Source: Gammaproteobacteria bacterium
GTDB taxonomy: Bacteria > Pseudomonadota > Gammaproteobacteria > JAPPPA01
Reading direction: 5' to 3'
Assembly: GCA_030425645.1 (NCBI GenBank)
Contig: JAUHZK010000003.1
Span: 124,001-188,000 of the forward strand
DNA: 64,000 bases
Made by a program: the position numbers and the translations under genes. Positions 1 through 10,361 of the stretch are shown in pieces (within the stretch, counting starts at the first letter, position 1; each line of letters opens with the position of its first letter). The notes below the pieces were generated by a model. It ran no database searches. It was not told the DNA's origin and was given only the letters and a program-made list of their open reading frames with translations.

Positions 1-2169
1 AATATCTTCAACGCCACTGACTTGTTCACCAAAACCATCGAACAAATGAGTGCCCGAGACGCCTCTAATACCCACGAGGTGATTGCCGAAGTATTCCGGG
101 CGATGAACACCAAGACGGTAGACCGCGACTCGGCAAACATTGCTAGATGGGCAAGCTCGTTCCCTTATGTAAACGGCGGCCTATTTGGTGGTAACGAAGA
201 TGTGCCGCGCTTTAGCAAAATCGCTCGCTCTTATCTGCTACACGTTGGCAACTTAGACTGGACCAAGATCAATCCGGACATATTTGGCTCTATGATTCAG
301 GCGGTTGCCGACGAGGAAGAGCGCGGCGAGTTAGGTATGCACTACACCAGCGTGCCAAACATCCTAAAAGTTTTAAACCCACTGTTCCTCGATGAGCTAC
401 GTGAGCAGCTAGAGCAAGCCGGAGATAACCCTCGAAAACTTCTAAACCTGCGTAAGCGTATTGCCCGAATTCGAGTGTTCGACCCCGCCTGTGGCTCGGG
501 AAATTTCCTAGTGATTGCCTACAAGCAGCTTCGCGAAATTGAATACGAAATTAACCGACGGCGTGAAGAAGTCACCAGCAAAACAGTTATTCCACTGACC
601 AATTTTCGTGGCATTGAGCTTCGGCACTTTTCTGCCGAAATTGCCCGCCTCGCACTCATCATTGCTGAATACCAGTGTGATGTTGAATACCTAGGTCAAC
701 AACAAGCACTGCAAGAGTTTTTGCCTCTTCAGGCTGATAACTGGATTACTTGTGGCAACGCTTTGCGGCTTGATTGGCTAAGGATCTGTCCGCCAACCGG
801 GATAGCTGCAAAACTTGTGGGCGATGACCTATTTGAAACTTCCTTGGACCAAGCAGAAATTGATTTTGAGAATGAAGGTGGTGAAACTTTTATATGTGGC
901 AATCCACCATATCTTGGCGACAAGAAACAATCACCAGAACAAAAAGCTGATATGGAGTCCATATTCAAGACCAAAACAACAAAATGGCGATCTTTGGATT
1001 ATGTTAGTGGCTGGTTCCTAAAAGCCGTTGAATACGGCGCTTCAAGCGTTTCCAAATCTGCGTTTGTAGCCACGAACTCTATATGCCAAGGCCAACAAAC
1101 ACCGGTTCTATGGCCTTTAATTTTAAGCTTTGGTTACGAAATAAACTTTGCATTCACGTCATTTAGCTGGAGCAACCTTGCTAGCCATAATGCGGGTGTA
1201 ACAGTAATCATTATCGGCATTTCTCGAAACTACGCTTCAGAGAAGCTACTGTATTCTGTTGATAAGCTCAACGAAGTCACTGTTAGAAAGTGCGCGAATA
1301 TTTCGCCCTATCTAACCCCCAGTCCAACCCAGTTCGTTGAAGCAAGCAGCAAGCCACTCGCCAAAGTTTCAGAAATGCTACTTGGCAACTTTGCGAAAGA
1401 TGGTGGACATCTATGTATTGAACCAAATGAATTGCCCACGCTATCTCCTCATGCATTCAAATACCTTAAGCCTATGTATGGCGGAAATGAATTCATAAAG
1501 GGACTTAAGCGCTACTGTCTATGGGTAGATGACACCTGTTACGAGGACGCAAATCAAGACTCATTTCTAGCAGATAGATTTAGCAAAGTACGATCTAACC
1601 GCTTAGCAAGCCCCAAGAAGGCAACCCAAAACTGGGCAGAAAAGCCTTACAAGTTTGTCGAAGTCCGCTCCCCAAGTTACAAAAATGCTTTGATTTTGCC
1701 AATCGTTAGCTCAGAAAACCGGGATTACTTTCCTGTTGGGCTGCTACCTCAAGAGTCTGTAGTCAATTACGCTTTCGCACTCTACGACGCTCCAGTCTGG
1801 AACATGGCACTTATCGCCTCTCGAATCCACCTTGTCTGGATTGCAACTGTTTGTGGCAAGTTGGAGACTAGATATCGCTATTCAAACACGCTCGGTTGGA
1901 ACACCTTTCCCGTACCCAATCTAACCGAGAAAAATAAAGCCGACTTAACTGCTTGTGCCGAAAATATCTTGTTAGCACGTGAAGCACATTACCCAGCAAC
2001 TATTGCTGATCTGTATGACCCCGACAACATGCCTGATAACCTCCGTGCAGCCCATGAGCGCAATGATGAGGTGTTAGAACGAATCTATATCGGCCGTCGA
2101 TTTAAAAACGACACGGAACGCCTAGAAAAGCTTTTCGAGCTATATACCAAGATGACTAAAGCAGCTTAG
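1..2169 (+). CDS. MmeI-type class I SAM-dependent adenine DNA methyltransferase, 5' end outside window
   Basis: The reading frame is open from base 1 without a convincing start, so the gene begins upstream and about 722 C-terminal residues are seen. A SAM-binding motif I (DPACGSGNFL) is followed by the N6-adenine catalytic motif IV GNPPYLG. The conserved segment before motif I (FPYVNGGLF, then GMHYTS) and the C-terminal block around DPDNMPDNLRAAH are typical of MmeI-like (type IIL) enzymes, which add a methyl group to adenine at a specific DNA site. In MmeI the nuclease domain is N-terminal. That part is not in the window, so I cannot say whether this is a full restriction-methylation enzyme or a methylase only. 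It leads a tightly packed run of genes and lies 12 nt before the next one. The C-terminus looks complete. Confidence 0.88.
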   Translation, partial: NIFNATDLFTKTIEQMSARDASNTHEVIAEVFRAMNTKTVDRDSANIARWASSFPYVNGGLFGGNEDVPRFSKIARSYLLHVGNLDWTKINPDIFGSMIQAVADEEERGELGMHYTSVPNILKVLNPLFLDELREQLEQAGDNPRKLLNLRKRIARIRVFDPACGSGNFLVIAYKQLREIEYEINRRREEVTSKTVIPLTNFRGIELRHFSAEIARLALIIAEYQCDVEYLGQQQALQEFLPLQADNWITCGNALRLDWLRICPPTGIAAKLVGDDLFETSLDQAEIDFENEGGETFICGNPPYLGDKKQSPEQKADMESIFKTKTTKWRSLDYVSGWFLKAVEYGASSVSKSAFVATNSICQGQQTPVLWPLILSFGYEINFAFTSFSWSNLASHNAGVTVIIIGISRNYASEKLLYSVDKLNEVTVRKCANISPYLTPSPTQFVEASSKPLAKVSEMLLGNFAKDGGHLCIEPNELPTLSPHAFKYLKPMYGGNEFIKGLKRYCLWVDDTCYEDANQDSFLADRFSKVRSNRLASPKKATQNWAEKPYKFVEVRSPSYKNALILPIVSSENRDYFPVGLLPQESVVNYAFALYDAPVWNMALIASRIHLVWIATVCGKLETRYRYSNTLGWNTFPVPNLTEKNKADLTACAENILLAREAHYPATIADLYDPDNMPDNLRAAHERNDEVLERIYIGRRFKNDTERLEKLFELYTKMTKAA

Positions 2170-2181
2170 TAGAGAACGACC

Positions 2182-3012
2182 GTGAGTAGCCTTTCAACAA
2201 TAGAAAAACGTTACTTTGAAAAACTGCTTGGTATGGAAAGCGGATACGTTTTGGAGTTCTCTGATGCTACTTTTGGCGAGTTCTTTCATCAGCATGACGT
2301 AGATATACATAGCCCCAAATATCAGACCTACGGCACTTCAAAAGCAAAAAAATTAAGAAGCTTTTGGGAACAGGAACCAGACAATTTAGTGGGGAAAGTC
2401 CTTTCCGGAATGATGGAGGTGTACAAAGCCAATGGCGACTTATTAGGCACCGAAATAGATCAAACCCTACTGAACAAATGCGCTCTGCACGCTTCTAGAT
2501 TGATAGGGAAAATTTCCGACGATACTACGGTCGACTCATTAGAAGATTTTCTACAGAACAAATTTACCGTTGAGAAACTAGAGAGGCTGCCAGTCGAATC
2601 CCAAGTGCTTTCGGTTATTCAATCAAGGCTTAACGAAGCGAGAAAGACTCTAGCAGCACAAGCTTATTTGTCGTCGATTTTCATGTGCGGGAGCATATTG
2701 GAGGCAGTTTTATTAGGCTGCGCAAGAAATAACCAAGAAGCTTTTAACCGAGCTCAAAGCAGCGCTAAAAATAAAGATGGGAGCGTACGCCACTTTCACG
2801 AGTGGAGCCTAGCGCAGTTAATTGACGCCGCGTGTGAACTGAGCCTGCTGAAACCCGATGTCAAAGAGTTTAGCCACGGCCTACGAGACTTTCGAAATTA
2901 TATTCACCCTTACCAACAACTGCTTTCTAGGTTTCAACCTGATAAACATACGGCAACGGTTTGCTTTCAAGTGTTAAATGCGGCCTTGGCCGATATTACA
3001 GGTGAAAGGTGA
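2182..3012 (+). CDS. HEPN-like protein, first of a pair (possible AbiJ-like N-terminal region)
   Basis: A 276-residue soluble protein without signal peptide or membrane segment, starting at a GTG 12 nt after the methyltransferase stop. The N-terminal ~110 residues (LEKRYFEKLLGMESGYVL, then FSDATFGEFF) resemble a recurrent module of uncharacterised and abortive-infection (AbiJ-type) proteins. I base this on memory of the family, not on a search. The C-terminal half is helical and ends in LRDFRNYIHPY, with R235/R238 and H242. This resembles the R-x4-6-H signature of HEPN RNases and HEPN-like toxins. Its stop overlaps the start of the next gene, so the two are translationally coupled. Function is unknown. 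Likely roles are RNase effector, or helical adaptor between methylase and helicase. Confidence 0.7.
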   Translation: MSSLSTIEKRYFEKLLGMESGYVLEFSDATFGEFFHQHDVDIHSPKYQTYGTSKAKKLRSFWEQEPDNLVGKVLSGMMEVYKANGDLLGTEIDQTLLNKCALHASRLIGKISDDTTVDSLEDFLQNKFTVEKLERLPVESQVLSVIQSRLNEARKTLAAQAYLSSIFMCGSILEAVLLGCARNNQEAFNRAQSSAKNKDGSVRHFHEWSLAQLIDAACELSLLKPDVKEFSHGLRDFRNYIHPYQQLLSRFQPDKHTATVCFQVLNAALADITGER

Positions 3013-3761
3013 TGGGGTTCACCTTATTCGAAATGTCGGACTCCAAACGTGAGTCGCTCATTGATGCACATGAGTTCTATTTTCAACAGGCAACTCGGCG
3101 CCTGCTGGCTCAGTTTGATAACTTTGAGGAACTAGCTGATTCCACCGTTAACGAGTGGGTAAAGACCAAGTTCCCCAACCTTTACCCCGGTTCAAACATT
3201 CCCGAATCCATCTGCATCCAGATTGATGATGTTGCCATTGAATATTATTGCTTGATGCGTGATATGCGTGATCAGACGGCGTTAAGCGTCGCTGCAAGTA
3301 TGTTTCACCAGTTCGAGAAGGACTTGAGGGAATGGCTTGTAGCACAAGTGTCTCACTGGCATCAAAACGCAAAAATCAAACAAAAAATTTGGAATGTTAA
3401 TTTTGACAAGTTAGTAGGTCTCTTAGAGCACACCGGCCTCGATGTAAGAGAAGAGAGTTACTTTAAAAAACTTGATGCTTGTAGGCTCGTGGTGAATACC
3501 TACAAGCATGGCAATGGCGATTCATTTGAACAGCTTAAAAATAATTTTCCTGAGTACATTGAAGACCCACTTGCCGATTTTGGGCCGCGGCTTGAATGGG
3601 ATCGTGACTATTTAGAGCATTCAAATGTCAAGGTTTCTCTACCAGACCTAACCGAGTTTTCAGAATCAATAATCGCTTTTTGGCGACAAGTTCCTGAGAA
3701 TGTCACAGATAAAGATGTAACCACTTTCCCAGAGTGGTTCAAGACAGCATTAAAGAATTAG
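3012..3761 (+). CDS. HEPN-like protein, second of a pair
   Basis: A roughly 249-residue soluble helical protein. The ATG at 3012 overlaps the previous stop in the arrangement TGATG. An in-frame GTG at 3009 is an alternative. Around residues 158-168 it has CRLVVNTYKHG, an arginine followed by N and KH, reminiscent of HEPN-like families of uncharacterised proteins. The R-to-H spacing (seven residues) is longer than the classical R-x4-6-H, so catalytic competence is uncertain. It lies between the first HEPN-like gene and the helicase, whose start is 22 nt downstream, and so belongs to the same operon. I do not recognise a named family, and the product should be read as hypothetical with HEPN-like features. 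Confidence 0.65.
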   Translation: MGFTLFEMSDSKRESLIDAHEFYFQQATRRLLAQFDNFEELADSTVNEWVKTKFPNLYPGSNIPESICIQIDDVAIEYYCLMRDMRDQTALSVAASMFHQFEKDLREWLVAQVSHWHQNAKIKQKIWNVNFDKLVGLLEHTGLDVREESYFKKLDACRLVVNTYKHGNGDSFEQLKNNFPEYIEDPLADFGPRLEWDRDYLEHSNVKVSLPDLTEFSESIIAFWRQVPENVTDKDVTTFPEWFKTALKN

Positions 3762-3783: not shown

Positions 3784-5838
3784 ATGACAACAACTAACAA
3801 ACAAGTACCATCAGTTTCGATGGCATACGCCAGCAACGGCGCCTCAACCACTTCAAACGAACTTGGCATGAGACTTATGCAAGAGCGTGCGTTTGAGTGC
3901 CGAGGAGAGCAATACTTGTTGATTAAGTCACCGCCGGCCTCGGGTAAAAGCCGTGCCCTAATGTTTATAGCCTTGGATAAATTAGCGAACCAAGGCATGC
4001 AACAGGCGATTGTGGTGGTGCCAGAAAAATCTATTGGCGCTAGCTTCCATAACGAGCCCTTGAGTAAATTCGGCTTTTGGGCGGATTGGCATGTAGAGCC
4101 CAAGTGGAACCTTTGCGACGCACCCGGTGAAGACGGTAGCAAGGTAAAAGCGGTGACGAGCTTTTTAGCCAGTGAAGACCAAATTTTAGTCTGCACCCAC
4201 GCGACGTTTCGGTTTGCCGTGGATAACTTGGGTGTGGAAGCCTTTGACAACCGCGTGATTGCCATTGATGAGTTCCACCATGTTTCATCCAACGCGGATA
4301 ACAAGTTAGGCGCCCAGCTGGTCCAACTTATTGAGCGAGATAAGGTACACGTAGTGGCGATGACCGGATCTTACTTCCGCGGTGATGCCGAAGCGGTTCT
4401 TTCACCAGAAGACGAGTCAAAGTTTGAGACGGTTACCTACACCTACTACGAGCAGCTGAACGGCTACGAGCACCTGAAGAACCTCGATATTGGTTATTAC
4501 TTCTATACCGGTTCCTACATGGATGAAATTTTGGATGTGCTCAACCCAAACGAGAAAACCATCATTCACATTCCTAATGTGAACGCACGTGAAAGCACGA
4601 AAGACAAAATACGCGAAGTCGAGCACATTATTGGCGAGCTAGGCGAATGGCAGGGCTCTGACCCTAAAACAGGGTTTCAGTTGGTTAAAACGGCTGAGGG
4701 TACAGTCCTAAAAATTGCGGATTTGGTTGACCCTGATCATCAAGCCACTATTCAAGCCAGCTTACGTGATGGCGCGATGAAGACCGACCGCGACTATGTC
4801 GACATCATCATTGCCCTAGGCATGGCTAAAGAAGGCTTTGATTGGATTTGGTGTGAGCATGCACTGACAATTGGCTACCGTTCAAGCCTAACTGAGATTG
4901 TTCAGATCATTGGCCGCGCGACACGCGATGCGCCCGGTAAAGCTAAAGCACGCTTCACCAACTTGATTGCGGAGCCAGACGCGTCTGAAGAAGCTGTTAC
5001 AGATGCCGTAAATGACACGCTAAAGGCCATAGCGGCGAGTTTGCTAATGGAACAAGTGCTGGCGCCTCGATTTGAGTTTAAGCCTAAGAACAGCACCAGC
5101 GGCCCTCAAGATGGGCTGGATTATGGTGACGAAGGTTATGACCCTGATCGCTGCAATGTCGGCTACGACCAAGACTCCGGCAAAGTACAAATCGAAGTGA
5201 AAGGTTTGGTCGAGCCGAAAAGCGAAGAAGCCACTCGCATTTGTCGTGAAGACATTAACGAGGTCATTGCGCCTCTTTTGCAAGATAAGACCACAGTTGA
5301 GCGTGGCCTTTTTGATGAAGAAATGTTGCCTGAGGAAGTTACGCAGGTAGCTATGGGCAAGATTATTAAAGATCGTTTTCCTGAGTTAGATGAACATGAC
5401 CAAGAGGCTGTGCGGCAACACGCCATTGCAGCGTTAAACATCACACAGCAAGCCAAGCAGGTGGTACTGGGTGAGGATGGTGACAACCCACAGAAGTTGA
5501 ATACGGCATTTATTAAAGGTGTGCGTCAATATGCAATGGATGTTAGAGAGTTGGACATTGACCTAATTGATCGTATTAACCCGTTCAATGAGGCTTACGC
5601 CATTCTCTCTAAGACGATGAGTGAATCCAGCCTAAAGCAGGTTGCCGCGATTATTACGGCCAAGCGCACCAAGCTTTCGCCAGAAGAAGCCAAAGAGTTA
5701 GCGGTGAGAGCGGTTAAGTTCAAGCGTGAGAGAGGACGAGTGCCTTCAATAACTGCAGCAGACCCTTGGGAAGCGAAAATGGCTGAAGGCGCCAAAGCCT
5801 TTGTTCGCTTTAAAGATGAAGGCCGATATGACGATTGA
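3784..5838 (+). CDS. Superfamily 2 DEAD/DEAH-type helicase of the defence operon
   Basis: A 684-residue ATP-dependent nucleic-acid motor. Walker A is SPPASGKS (residues 49-56), the DEAH-box variant is DEFH (162-165), a motif III-like TGS is at 194-196, and motif VI is QIIGRATR (374-381). The last ~270 residues carry no domain I know. They end in a short block, GRVPSITAADPWEAKMAEG, which resembles a block near the N-terminus of the following nuclease. The G-rich stretch at 3764-3776 may be the ribosome-binding site. The 3' end overlaps the nuclease gene by 11 nt. Inferred role: DNA translocation or unwinding coupled to the GIY-YIG nuclease. It is shorter than typical type I or III restriction helicase subunits. 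Confidence 0.85.
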   Translation: MTTTNKQVPSVSMAYASNGASTTSNELGMRLMQERAFECRGEQYLLIKSPPASGKSRALMFIALDKLANQGMQQAIVVVPEKSIGASFHNEPLSKFGFWADWHVEPKWNLCDAPGEDGSKVKAVTSFLASEDQILVCTHATFRFAVDNLGVEAFDNRVIAIDEFHHVSSNADNKLGAQLVQLIERDKVHVVAMTGSYFRGDAEAVLSPEDESKFETVTYTYYEQLNGYEHLKNLDIGYYFYTGSYMDEILDVLNPNEKTIIHIPNVNARESTKDKIREVEHIIGELGEWQGSDPKTGFQLVKTAEGTVLKIADLVDPDHQATIQASLRDGAMKTDRDYVDIIIALGMAKEGFDWIWCEHALTIGYRSSLTEIVQIIGRATRDAPGKAKARFTNLIAEPDASEEAVTDAVNDTLKAIAASLLMEQVLAPRFEFKPKNSTSGPQDGLDYGDEGYDPDRCNVGYDQDSGKVQIEVKGLVEPKSEEATRICREDINEVIAPLLQDKTTVERGLFDEEMLPEEVTQVAMGKIIKDRFPELDEHDQEAVRQHAIAALNITQQAKQVVLGEDGDNPQKLNTAFIKGVRQYAMDVRELDIDLIDRINPFNEAYAILSKTMSESSLKQVAAIITAKRTKLSPEEAKELAVRAVKFKRERGRVPSITAADPWEAKMAEGAKAFVRFKDEGRYDD

Positions 5839-7009
5839 TTTAGATGATTTGCGTTCTGAGCTAGATGAGCTAGCTGAACCAAAGAAAGAAAAGAAACGCT
5901 CGGCAGTTGAAGAGCGTGTGCTGGCTGGTTTTGAAGAGATTTTGAAGTTTGTTCAAGACAACGGCCGTGAGCCAGCAAATGCCGAGGGCAATGACATCTT
6001 TGAGCGCCTGTACGCAGTACGTTTGGAGCAGCTTCGCAAGCAAACTCAATTCCATGAGTTATTGAGCGAGTTAGACACGGAGGGACTACTTGGTGCGTGT
6101 GATAAGGATGATGCTTTACCGGAATTAGGTGACGACGAATTGTTAGCTGAACTAGCCGCTAGTGAAGCGAGTACCGATGAGTCGGATATCACCAACTTGA
6201 CCCATGTGCGCTCCCATAAAGAGCGACAGGCCGCTAAAGAAGTGGCCAATCGTGTGCGCTGCAATGACTTTGAACAATTCAAAGACTTATTTGAACAAGT
6301 ACAACGAGAAATTAAAGAAGGCGTTCGCCTTACCGCTGAATACGGTAAAAACGCCGCTGTAGAGCAAGGTGACTTTTACATCTTGGGTGGTGTTTTAACC
6401 TACGTTGCAGAAATTGGAGAAGAGATAAAAGCTACCGATGGGCGTCCTGATGCTCGTCTGCGCGTCATCTTCGCCAATGGTACTGAGAGCAATATGCTTG
6501 GTATTTCTCTAAAACGAGCTTTATACAAGAACGAAGCAAGCCGACGCGTAGGCCCACCTGAATACAAGCCACTACTCAGCGATCAAGCAGAGGAAGGTGA
6601 CATTGAAAGCGGCACTATCTACGTTTTACGTAGCAAGTCTAATGAGCCATTTGTAGCCGAGAACCGTGAGCTAATACATAAGATTGGAGTCACCGGCGGG
6701 AGCGTTGAGAAACGAATTGCCAACGCTGCCAACGAGGCTACCTACCTACTCGCAGATGTTGAGGTAGTGGCAACATACAGACTGGTAGGCATTAATCGCA
6801 ACAAGGTCGAGAATCTCATCCACAGGGGACTTGGTGCCGCACAAATTGATTTGGTTATAAAAGACCGTTTTGGCAAACCAGTGAAGCCACGTGAGTGGTT
6901 TTTAGTGCCGATTCATACTATTGACGCCATCGTGAAAAAACTAATGAACGGCACGCTTACTGATTATATTTATGACCCGTCAGAGGCGAAATTGAGGAAA
7001 ATTCAATGA
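5828..7009 (+). CDS. GIY-YIG nuclease, T5orf172/Mug113-like
   Basis: A 393-residue protein. The start at 5828 is chosen because a GAAGG lies 5 nt upstream and the next residues (MTIDLDDL) begin a coherent protein. An earlier in-frame ATG at 5801 would overlap the helicase further. The C-terminal domain has a GIY-like strand (GTIYVL, 262-267), KIGVT in the place of YIG (285-289), an arginine near 296, and a glutamate in NKVENLIH near 328, as in T5orf172/Mug113 members of the GIY-YIG superfamily. The region before it contains charged coiled stretches and a GREP block that resembles the end of the helicase. Overlap with both neighbours (11 nt and 4 nt) indicates coupled translation. Likely the DNA-cutting subunit. 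The target is unknown. Confidence 0.82.
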   Translation: MTIDLDDLRSELDELAEPKKEKKRSAVEERVLAGFEEILKFVQDNGREPANAEGNDIFERLYAVRLEQLRKQTQFHELLSELDTEGLLGACDKDDALPELGDDELLAELAASEASTDESDITNLTHVRSHKERQAAKEVANRVRCNDFEQFKDLFEQVQREIKEGVRLTAEYGKNAAVEQGDFYILGGVLTYVAEIGEEIKATDGRPDARLRVIFANGTESNMLGISLKRALYKNEASRRVGPPEYKPLLSDQAEEGDIESGTIYVLRSKSNEPFVAENRELIHKIGVTGGSVEKRIANAANEATYLLADVEVVATYRLVGINRNKVENLIHRGLGAAQIDLVIKDRFGKPVKPREWFLVPIHTIDAIVKKLMNGTLTDYIYDPSEAKLRKIQ

Positions 7010-7953
7010 CCCCAACGAGAAGCTTCTACAGGATCATGCCTGGCGCCAAAAGTGTTCACGCCAAAGCGTGCTATGAAGGCGGCTACATTGGCGGTGATTG
7101 GGGGATTCGACAGAATTTGGCTGACAACCTGCCGGATAACTGGCGGGAGTTTAATCAAATATTCATTCCCGTTTTCCTTGAAGGGCGGCCGGACAAAACG
7201 AAGATCGCCGCTGGCCTTGCTTGCGGAATGCTCCACACGATATGTAAAGGCGCCAAGGTCGGGGACATCGTGCTCTGCCCGAGTGGCACCGGCATATATT
7301 TTGTTGGTGAAATTGTCTCTGAGTATTACTTTGTAGACGACGAATTACCGCATCGCCGAAAGGTTAAGTGGTTTGATAAAGGCCTGGCTCGGGAAGAGTT
7401 AAGCGAAGCTCTGCTTAATAGTGCCGGCTCGATTGGCACTGTCAGCAACTTGACCAAATATGCCGAGGAGTTGGAGTCCTTACTTGACGGCCATAAACCT
7501 CCCGCGCTAGTTCATGAAGATAAAGACGTAGAAGACGCGTCAGTCTTCGCGCTAGAGAAGCATTTAGAGGATTTTCTAGTTTCAAACTGGTCGTCAACTA
7601 GCCTAGGGCGCCATTACGACATTTACACCGACGATGGCGAAATTGTAGGCCAGCAATATCCTAGCGATACTGGCCCAATAGATATTCTCGCTGTTAGCAA
7701 AGACCAAAAAACGCTGTTGGTAGTCGAGCTCAAACGTGGCCGAGCTAGCGATGTAGTAGTCGGTCAAATTCAACGCTATATGGGTTACGTGAAGCATGAC
7801 CTAGCCGAGCCGGACCAAGAGGTTAAAGGGTTAATAATCGCTCTAGAAGATGACCTCAAACTTCGGAGAGCATTAAGTGTCACGAGCAATATTGACTTCT
7901 ATCGTTACGAGGTTAGGTTCAAACTTATTGACGACCTAGCCAGCCTGCCGTAG
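7006..7953 (+). CDS. PUA-like domain / NucS-like PD-(D/E)XK nuclease
   Basis: A 315-residue protein whose ATG overlaps the preceding TGA (ATGA). The C-terminal part (~180-315) has a NucS/DUF91-type layout: an acidic helix (ALEKHLEDFL), D226 in PIDILAV, the E-L-K triad element in VVELKRG (E241, K243) and QIQRYMGYV. NucS-family enzymes cut DNA in a metal-dependent way. The N-terminal ~110 residues have a small beta-rich pattern (GDIVLCPSGTGIYFVGEI) that resembles PUA/EVE-like modules used to read modified bases; this part is inference. Being the last gene of the tightly packed group, it probably acts with the methylase-helicase-nuclease set. Alternatively it is an independent restriction enzyme of type IV style. 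Confidence 0.8.
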   Translation: MTPTRSFYRIMPGAKSVHAKACYEGGYIGGDWGIRQNLADNLPDNWREFNQIFIPVFLEGRPDKTKIAAGLACGMLHTICKGAKVGDIVLCPSGTGIYFVGEIVSEYYFVDDELPHRRKVKWFDKGLAREELSEALLNSAGSIGTVSNLTKYAEELESLLDGHKPPALVHEDKDVEDASVFALEKHLEDFLVSNWSSTSLGRHYDIYTDDGEIVGQQYPSDTGPIDILAVSKDQKTLLVVELKRGRASDVVVGQIQRYMGYVKHDLAEPDQEVKGLIIALEDDLKLRRALSVTSNIDFYRYEVRFKLIDDLASLP

Positions 7954-8035
7954 CAGCGAAGAAAGTGGCTGCAGCCGAATTCATCAGCTCCTACTAACTC
8001 TCAGTTACCTTGCATCTGAATAAGGTTATTAGCAA

Positions 8036-10090
8036 ATGCATGACATTAGCCAAAAGCTAGCTTTGTACTTAACAGGAAAATCACAATTAAACGACTGGGC
8101 TGACGAGGTTGCAATCGAGGCCAAAGACGTTTGGGGCGGCAACGACGATGGCTTAGAACGCCAGATAATGGTGTCAACGCTTAATGCATTACTTTTAATA
8201 CTAAGAGCTAAACCCCAAAAACGGGCCGAACCACAAATTGCAAGCATAAAAGACGCCAAGCCCAAAAACGCTTTAGATGACAAAAATCAAAATAGCGGCG
8301 AAACCATTTCAAATGAAGCAGTCGAGCTCGCAAAAATCTGGGGGGCGAATTTTGGAATCAAGCAGGCTGAATTACGTAGAGGATCATGCAAGCTAACCCC
8401 ACTTAATTACCATGAAGGGGTGCTGGAGTTTATAAAGCAAAGCACTGGATTTGACTGTATTAAGCAAGTTAACGACTACTTCAATTTTAGCTTTCCAGTC
8501 GAGCGCGAAGCTTGGGACGAGCCAAGCTCTGAATTTTCAGGCATTAAAGTTTTCGACCCAAAAGCTTTAGAACGGGTATTTGAGTACCTTATTGGCTTTA
8601 CAGAGGCAAGCAACGACAGATCCGCTAAAAATTTTGTTCTAGAGCTAAGAGAAGCCTTTAGGTCAGGCCTCTTTAACAGTGGTTTAATTCTAGGAGGATT
8701 AGCGGTTCCGGGTATTACATTTAACATACTGAGTTTTGCCCTTGATGGGGGCTACACAGAAGCACTGGCTCTACTGAGCAAGGTAACTCATCACGAATAT
8801 AAAAACGAAACAAGTGACATTATGACTGCCGCACTTAATGACGAAGTCATAATGGATCGATGCTCCTCATCCTTATCTATCTCTAAAAAACGCATAGAGC
8901 AATTTGTTCGGGAACAGTCAAAAGCATGCTTAACGTTTCTGGAACTCACTCAACTCACTGACGCTAGCGATTACTGTATTTTGTACTTACCAAACTTTGA
9001 CCAAAGTGACTACGAAAACCCAGATGGAATGATTGAGGCATACCTAGATACTGTTTATAAACTTAAGTCTGGTAAGCCACGAGCTGAGTGCCCCCTTACA
9101 TTCTTACAAGCTACATCCATCAGAGCGGGTACCGACGCCTATTGCTGGGATGACCAAGAACACCTCCGAGACCTGCAGGACTCCTTAGCGGATGCTGACA
9201 ACTCACTAGGTGACCCAATTCGCTATCTGGAGCTAGCACACAAAGCATTTCTCCTCGACTATGGTGCTTTGGGCTCATCCTTTTTGATTATGTTTTTAAT
9301 TCAAAGCGATGAATTTCCAGAATACACGCTAAATCATTGGGAACGTTTCTGCCTTCTATATACGAAGGTTGAACACTCAGATGTTGCCAGAGCTCTGAAG
9401 TTCACGGCGGAGCAAGTTGAAGTATATTTGAGTAATCAGACGAGCATTCACCACCAAAAGGTTGCGTTTTTGGTTCAGCAAAAGTTCCAGAAGCTCAGAA
9501 CTGCACAGCTAAAATCCATCGAACCCAAACAATACTCACAACCTCCAAACACCGTAGAACTTCCACCCGCGCAACTCGACCTATTCTGCAAGGACGCTAG
9601 AAAGCTCTATCTATCCGCTAAGTTGCACTTTTCAATAGCAAGCCAATTCATGGACGATGAAAGATTAGATTGGGGGCCGGTAGCTGTGAGTTTCTTTAAA
9701 CCCATCGAGAGTGAAATCAAATACCGGTTAGAGAAGATATTCGTAAGCCCTCAATACCAATCTGAACTAAGAAATTTAGGCATCAAAATTAACCCTAAAG
9801 ATAAACACATTCCTGTTGGGGCAATTCTATTAGCGTTCAAAAAACCAGAAAAATGGAGTGATGAACTAACACAACAAATTCACTCTTCGAATGTATTTAT
9901 TCAAAAAGATAAAAAATTGGCGCAAGATTTAATCAACTTAAGCAAGGTCAGGAACCCTGGAGCACACACTGGCGACATAAAAGTCGACGATATGCTGAAC
10001 TTCCTTAATTCGCTCTACGGCGAAAAACAAATAATGGGGCGTTTTCTAAATGCTCTACAAGAGCCTCAGCTGGTAGATAACCCTCACTAA
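8036..10090 (+). CDS. Large uncharacterised protein with C-terminal HEPN motif
   Basis: A 684-residue soluble protein with no membrane segment or signal peptide. The start ATG lies 82 nt after the nuclease gene, with AAGG about 11 nt upstream. I do not recognise the first ~550 residues, which include helical stretches and a central region rich in acidic residues. The last ~120 residues are helical and contain RNPGAH (R639-H644), a textbook R-x4-H HEPN signature, preceded by LINLSKV. HEPN proteins are commonly RNases in abortive-infection and toxin-antitoxin systems, but non-catalytic ones exist. The gap suggests that it may be a separate unit from the upstream operon, or be made from read-through. 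It is the last complete gene before the island boundary. Confidence 0.75.
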   Translation: MHDISQKLALYLTGKSQLNDWADEVAIEAKDVWGGNDDGLERQIMVSTLNALLLILRAKPQKRAEPQIASIKDAKPKNALDDKNQNSGETISNEAVELAKIWGANFGIKQAELRRGSCKLTPLNYHEGVLEFIKQSTGFDCIKQVNDYFNFSFPVEREAWDEPSSEFSGIKVFDPKALERVFEYLIGFTEASNDRSAKNFVLELREAFRSGLFNSGLILGGLAVPGITFNILSFALDGGYTEALALLSKVTHHEYKNETSDIMTAALNDEVIMDRCSSSLSISKKRIEQFVREQSKACLTFLELTQLTDASDYCILYLPNFDQSDYENPDGMIEAYLDTVYKLKSGKPRAECPLTFLQATSIRAGTDAYCWDDQEHLRDLQDSLADADNSLGDPIRYLELAHKAFLLDYGALGSSFLIMFLIQSDEFPEYTLNHWERFCLLYTKVEHSDVARALKFTAEQVEVYLSNQTSIHHQKVAFLVQQKFQKLRTAQLKSIEPKQYSQPPNTVELPPAQLDLFCKDARKLYLSAKLHFSIASQFMDDERLDWGPVAVSFFKPIESEIKYRLEKIFVSPQYQSELRNLGIKINPKDKHIPVGAILLAFKKPEKWSDELTQQIHSSNVFIQKDKKLAQDLINLSKVRNPGAHTGDIKVDDMLNFLNSLYGEKQIMGRFLNALQEPQLVDNPH

Positions 10091-10131
10091 AGTCGCTCCA
10101 ACGACTAACCGCTATAATATTCATACTATTT

Positions 10132-10163
10132 ATAAATCATTAAAATACAATGATTTATTTATT
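10132..10163 (+). terminator. AT-rich hairpin after the 684-residue HEPN gene
   Basis: A 10-bp perfect stem (ATAAATCATT at 10132-10141 with AATGATTTAT at 10149-10158), a 7-nt loop and a following T-rich stretch. It could end transcription of the island, but the stem is all A/T-rich and weak. It also lies directly beside the island boundary. Confidence 0.4.
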
Positions 10164-10361
10164 TTAGTATTTTTTTTGGGGTTCTTTCTGATATTCAGCA
10201 TTTTCAGAACGATCACCCTCAGCCGCTGCCGCGGACAAGGCCCGCACCACCTCGGGGCGGCGCTTAGTCCACAGGTGATCAAGCTCCGCTTTTAAAGCAA
10301 TCAGCCCCTGTGCCGTGATGTACGGCGAGGACTTTGCTTGTGGTGGTCGCCAGCGTCCCAT
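10164..10361 (-). pseudogene. greB: Truncated transcription elongation factor GreB
   Basis: The first ~58 residues match GreB well: MGRWRPP start, [22 protein letters not shown] and [10 protein letters not shown]. GreB rescues backtracked RNA polymerase by inserting its N-terminal coiled coil into the secondary channel, and normally has about 160 residues with a C-terminal FKBP-like domain. Here homology stops at ENAEYQ, and seven unrelated residues lead to a stop in AT-rich DNA. The second coiled-coil helix and the whole C-terminal domain are missing, so the product should be non-functional. The ATG at 10361 lies 9 nt after the stop of the SDR gene. The break coincides with the edge of the defence island, so the island most likely replaced or split the 3' part of greB. 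Confidence 0.85.

Follow-up and report, generated by a model that had tools for sequence, protein, structure and literature searches.

An orphan protein of 684 residues, designated P0001, is encoded by the final gene in the cargo of a gamma-mobile-trio (GMT) island, a mobile element of ~18.8 kb inserted in the host greB gene. Our preferred reading, to which we assign a probability of roughly 45%, is that the island carries P0001 as independent cargo and that its product is a HEPN RNase effector with a function in defence. The gene lies at positions 8036..10090 on the plus strand of the window, the 64,000-nucleotide stretch of DNA that was analysed, and coordinates below refer to the window unless a locus or contig is named. 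P0001 matched no family over cut-off and returned no relative. The arguments for the proposed function come from the island in which the gene resides, from the comparison of neighbouring genes with homologous loci, and from the C-terminal region of the protein itself.

P0001 is the final cargo gene of a GMT island

The island extends over approximately C9:115,403-134,195, between copies of CTGATATT, and starts 8.6 kb upstream of the window. The defining trio is complete and also sits upstream of the window, with scores of 210.9 bits for GmtX, 355.6 for GmtY and 765.1 for GmtZ, compared to NCBIfam cut-offs of 40, 340 and 600, respectively. The right end of the island (10091..10195) consists of an AT-rich stem-loop region followed by the CTGATATT copy that is repeated at the left end. 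Because the element is bounded by these copies, its right end can be placed at 10188-10195, ~100 bp past the stop codon of P0001. The stem-loop itself, at 10121-10166, lies past the P0001 stop and inside the right end of the island; its folding z is -3.6, and it could act as a terminator or as a site for a recombinase.

An empty site was found in a congener (G112, locus L036), where the sequence is continuous, inside greB, at the point at which the flanks of the island meet, and this argues that the island is mobile. In the present genome, the N-terminal fragment of the host greB that was cut by the island is found at 10190..10361 on the minus strand, and its translation matches the congener's intact greB (L036:2441-2941). 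The island also contains a complete greB of its own that adjoins gmtX (L016:4176-4655), as if replacing the split host gene. A 425-aa island protein encoded on the opposite strand (L016:4680-5957, minus strand) has no NCBIfam or PADLOC match.

The reading frame of P0001 is open from the first possible ATG for 684 codons, with stops crowding the opposite strand. An 82-nt gap (7954..8035, plus strand) separates P0001 from the NucS-like gene that ends at 7953, and neither a consensus promoter nor a terminator was called within it. Both the 684-residue open reading frame and the 82-nt gap to the operon, as described in the earlier note, are borne out by the sequence.

A conserved operon core upstream of P0001

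All of the genes between the start of the window and P0001 are on the plus strand. As judged by comparison of homologous loci, the conserved operon core is composed of three genes: an MmeI-type IIG restriction-methyltransferase (1..2169; PF20473, 2.8e-113; PADLOC REase_MTase_IIG, 1e-243) that begins ~560 bp before the window start, a DEAD/DEAH helicase (3784..5838), and a GIY-YIG (T5orf172) nuclease (5801..7009). Outside of the core is a NucS-like PD-(D/E)XK protein, the PADLOC candidate PDC-S02 (7006..7953; 6.6e-161).

Between the IIG and helicase genes is an accessory slot (2182-3761; L062-L079) that holds differing genes, or nothing, depending on the locus. Here, the slot is occupied by a gene for a DUF4145-like HEPN protein with a sub-cut-off match (2182..3012; PF13643, 0.0013), and by a member of the phrog_19541 family of unassigned function (3009..3761; 7e-58). 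The first 126 residues of the DUF4145-like protein (2182-2560) are 42% identical to a plasmid-encoded protein annotated as 'abortive infection family protein'. Slot contents elsewhere include RhuM, a YhcG/DUF1016 nuclease, an AlbA_2/Schlafen-like protein, an AAA_15 ATPase, a CoiA-like protein, and a weak PLD-like protein.

For the helicase, 264 plasmid records and 12 further genomes from the class sample contain relatives, and 18 of the loci (8 on plasmids and 10 in genomes) were inspected. The gene order in these loci is IIG, 0 to 2 other genes, helicase and GIY-YIG, with the IIG frame broken in a few instances, and the genes that follow GIY-YIG vary from locus to locus. P0001 is absent from all 18 homologous loci, as is the NucS-like gene. 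Missing from 18/18 loci, P0001 falls outside the core of the operon, although a local partnership could still exist. The comparison therefore supports the earlier suggestion that P0001 is independent of the operon, as the operon core recurs without it and the downstream genes are variable.

The C-terminal region of P0001 resembles Swt1-like HEPN domains

Two features of HEPN RNases are an Rx4-6H motif with a polar residue after the arginine, and a second element of the form Ex3[KR] (PMC3710099). The proposed catalytic motif of P0001 is RNPGAH (residues 639-644; 9950..9967, plus strand), with R639 and H644 as its arginine and histidine and an asparagine following R639. The second element is represented twice, by E558-SEI-K562 and E560-IKY-R564 (9707..9727, plus strand), but such elements are weak evidence because they are common by chance. 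Similarly, a bare R-x4-H is present in 43.8% of shuffles of the P0001 residues and is uninformative for this reason, whereas RNx3H is rarer, at 2.6% of shuffles. Among 541 mechanically called ORFs of at least 100 aa from the window and the fetched loci, RN..AH is unique to P0001, a second match in the set being P0001 itself in an overlapping locus. Thus, RNPGAH does fit R-x4-H as first noted, but the fit to the bare pattern has no diagnostic value.

The proposed HEPN domain corresponds to a C-terminal helical region of residues 513-684 (9572..10087, plus strand), which is preceded by a Pro/Gln-rich linker at residues ~493-512. Searches with P0001 found nothing over cut-off in Pfam, NCBIfam, PADLOC or PHROGs. 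With the C-terminal 186 residues, HEPN_Swt1 was the sole Pfam family returned, at a sub-cut-off E of 0.077, and the score of P0001 against this model (PF18731), 13.7 bits, falls below the gathering cut-off of 27.5, and so does not confer membership.

Against a Swt1-like HEPN profile built from ten segments out of genomes of the gammaproteobacterial class, the C-terminal region scored 13.5 bits, as compared to a best score of 8.3 in 2000 shuffles, and P0001 ranked at the top of the 541-ORF set. In hhalign comparisons with Swt1-like HEPN, P0001 scored 32.9 with a probability of 69%, for a match that spans just ~44 columns around the motif and has a single sequence on the P0001 side; 200 shuffles scored no higher than 22.4, and 13 other island proteins no higher than 19.7. 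An independent hhalign comparison gave 57%. These values of 57-69% are above all controls and under the 75-98% range of HHpred probabilities for profile matches among HEPN families (PMC3710099). Furthermore, RN..AH, the helix that precedes it, Ex3[KR] and Trp607 align jointly with Swt1-like HEPN.

A model of the C-terminal domain, predicted with Swt1-like HEPN rows, is all-helical with a pLDDT of 63 and a pTM of 0.41, and leans toward Swt1-like HEPN because those rows sat in its alignment. Foldseek searches with this low-confidence model found no match in PDB or BFVD, and no solved HEPN structure; a single-sequence AlphaFold prediction of full-length P0001 was unusable (pLDDT 36). A joint profile of P0001 and the Swt1-like sequences reaches a solved HEPN RNase, Csm6 (6tug), at 1.1e-4. 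However, the Swt1-type profile minus P0001 also reaches Csm6 6tug, at 0.0018, and the match consequently speaks for the Swt1 side only.

From these comparisons, the C-terminal end of P0001 is likely to carry a HEPN fold. The HEPN domain claimed in the earlier note is thus upheld in part, by the context of the motif and a near-threshold profile match, and is left short of a confident family match and of confirmation of the fold. Elsewhere in the same genome, a separate protein (L045:1453-1830, on C13) has a Swt1-like HEPN domain that scores above the Pfam cut-off.

No relative of P0001 in the collections searched

Searches of 369 genomes of the class, 398 of the phylum and 200 of another order, samples that overlap partly and comprise some 950 genomes in all, found no relative of P0001. 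Pattern scans of 84,980 GTDB species genomes with two pattern sets, which detect just close relatives or those that keep the motif, were also empty, as were tblastn searches of 72,556 plasmids and 50,697 phages, scans of IMG/VR, and pattern scans widened by HEPN-enriched alignments. The P0001 family would appear to be rare within the collections searched, and a distant family is possible. In agreement with the earlier note, none of the libraries and collections searched gave a match to the first 550 residues.

A number of candidate relatives were rejected. Three weak whole-genome matches (E 0.0018-0.08) are to unrelated proteins, namely a substrate-binding protein, an acyltransferase-like protein, and a large helical protein whose gene is next to one encoding a membrane protein. 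A phage match at E 0.8 falls under a terminase. It is by coincidence that P0001 and the helicase are both 684 aa long, as the helicase matches another, widespread family that never returns P0001.

A proposed role for P0001 in defence

C-terminal HEPN effectors usually act by way of a regulatory region that silences a dimeric, metal-independent RNase until infection. For P0001, we propose that the long helical N-terminal and middle region (~residues 1-490), which belongs to no recognised family, would keep the C-terminal HEPN silent, and that a phage-associated signal would lead to its release. Once free, the HEPN domain, which is probably dimeric with R639 and H644 in composite sites, would function as a metal-independent RNase, and the cutting of RNA would stop growth ahead of phage release. 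The RNase step of this proposal draws on established HEPN chemistry (PMC3710099), and RNase activity is a probable property of P0001. A role in defence is suggested by the GMT trio and by the restriction-type neighbouring cargo, and is somewhat favoured. That the N-terminal region is a sensor is a more tentative suggestion, with chances a little short of even, and no sensor domain was recognised in P0001 with the family libraries searched. Bolder, and rather unlikely, is the idea that P0001 represents the first of a new family of single-protein antiphage systems, spread by a GMT island, that joins a HEPN RNase to a ~490-residue helical sensor of an undescribed kind.

One competing explanation, which we regard as unlikely, is that P0001 has no HEPN domain, or a non-catalytic HEPN-like one, and that the motif arose by chance in a helical protein concerned with RNA or protein binding or with island maintenance. 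The shuffles with R-x4-H (44%) and with RNx3H (2.6%) are consistent with such an origin, as are the lack of any family model over cut-off and the empty Foldseek searches, but RN..AH, the preceding helix, Ex3[KR] and Trp607 align jointly with Swt1-like HEPN, which speaks against it. Another explanation assigns P0001 to the operon, as a second-line effector of the IIG-helicase-GIY-YIG genes that is silenced by the restriction complex and freed when restriction is blocked. PrrC, with its R-M partner, is a precedent for this arrangement (PMC3710099), and P0001 is on the same strand as the operon, across an 82-nt gap with no terminator called, in a setting where the slot between IIG and helicase accepts swapped-in accessory genes. 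However, 18 homologous operons are without P0001 and have different genes after GIY-YIG in each case, while P0001 itself is found outside of the slot, beyond a further non-core gene, and has a GC content of 0.425, below the 0.46-0.49 of the core genes. A dependence of P0001 on the operon is, on this evidence, distinctly unlikely.

That further gene, the NucS-like one, could instead form a two-gene system with P0001, in which the NucS-like protein recognises or cuts DNA and P0001 cuts RNA. The two genes are neighbours on the same strand and are both outside of the operon core, yet NucS-like relatives with 63-69% identity occur without a P0001-like gene. One of these, in the congener (L018:4052-4984; 69% identity), is alone between host genes, and another is inside a type I R-M locus, again without a P0001-like gene. 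These relatives rule out P0001 and NucS as a conserved unit, and a two-gene system appears improbable. Least probable is that P0001 is an antibacterial secretion-system effector; T6SS toxins are indeed carried by GMT islands (PMC12039261), but no immunity gene follows P0001, the island ends ~100 bp past its stop codon, and no effector family was matched. The preferred reading of P0001 as an independent cargo gene treats it as a plausible HEPN effector with an unrecognised regulatory part, as predicted from a single sequence. The suggestion in the earlier note that it may be a single-gene abortive-infection system is a reasonable conjecture.

Comparison with known systems

HEPN effectors are common, and their triggers are an open question. 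P0001, with its HEPN-like domain joined to an unrecognised region that returned no relatives and its gene bordering a defence-carrying island, offers a candidate phage-sensing module of a new kind. Furthermore, the comparison of 18 operons separates a conserved core from swapped slot genes and unrelated cargo, and cautions against lumping the adjoining genes of a defence island as one system.

GMT islands have been described as mobile armouries bearing antiphage systems and T6SS toxins (PMC12039261). The present island shares with them a complete set of GmtY, GmtZ and GmtX together with defence-like cargo; a possible difference is that it sits in greB and bears its own greB.

At the level of the protein, the closest comparison is to the Swt1-like HEPN domains (PF18731), which correspond to the Abi2/Swt1 clade of PMC3710099. 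In common with these, P0001 has RNxxAH after a helix, an Ex3[KR] upstream, and a tryptophan (W607) in the preceding helix, whereas the match is subthreshold (E 0.077), the identity is 13-20%, and no partner domain is matched by the remainder of the protein. The anticodon nucleases PrrC and RloC have a C-terminal HEPN, as proposed for P0001, behind a long regulatory region and in the context of R-M defence, but P0001 has no match to an ABC ATPase or to any P-loop protein. The Csm6 and Csx1 HEPN RNases likewise place a C-terminal HEPN behind a sensor part, an arrangement proposed for P0001, and differ from it in that P0001 has no match to CARF or to any other Csm6 domain.
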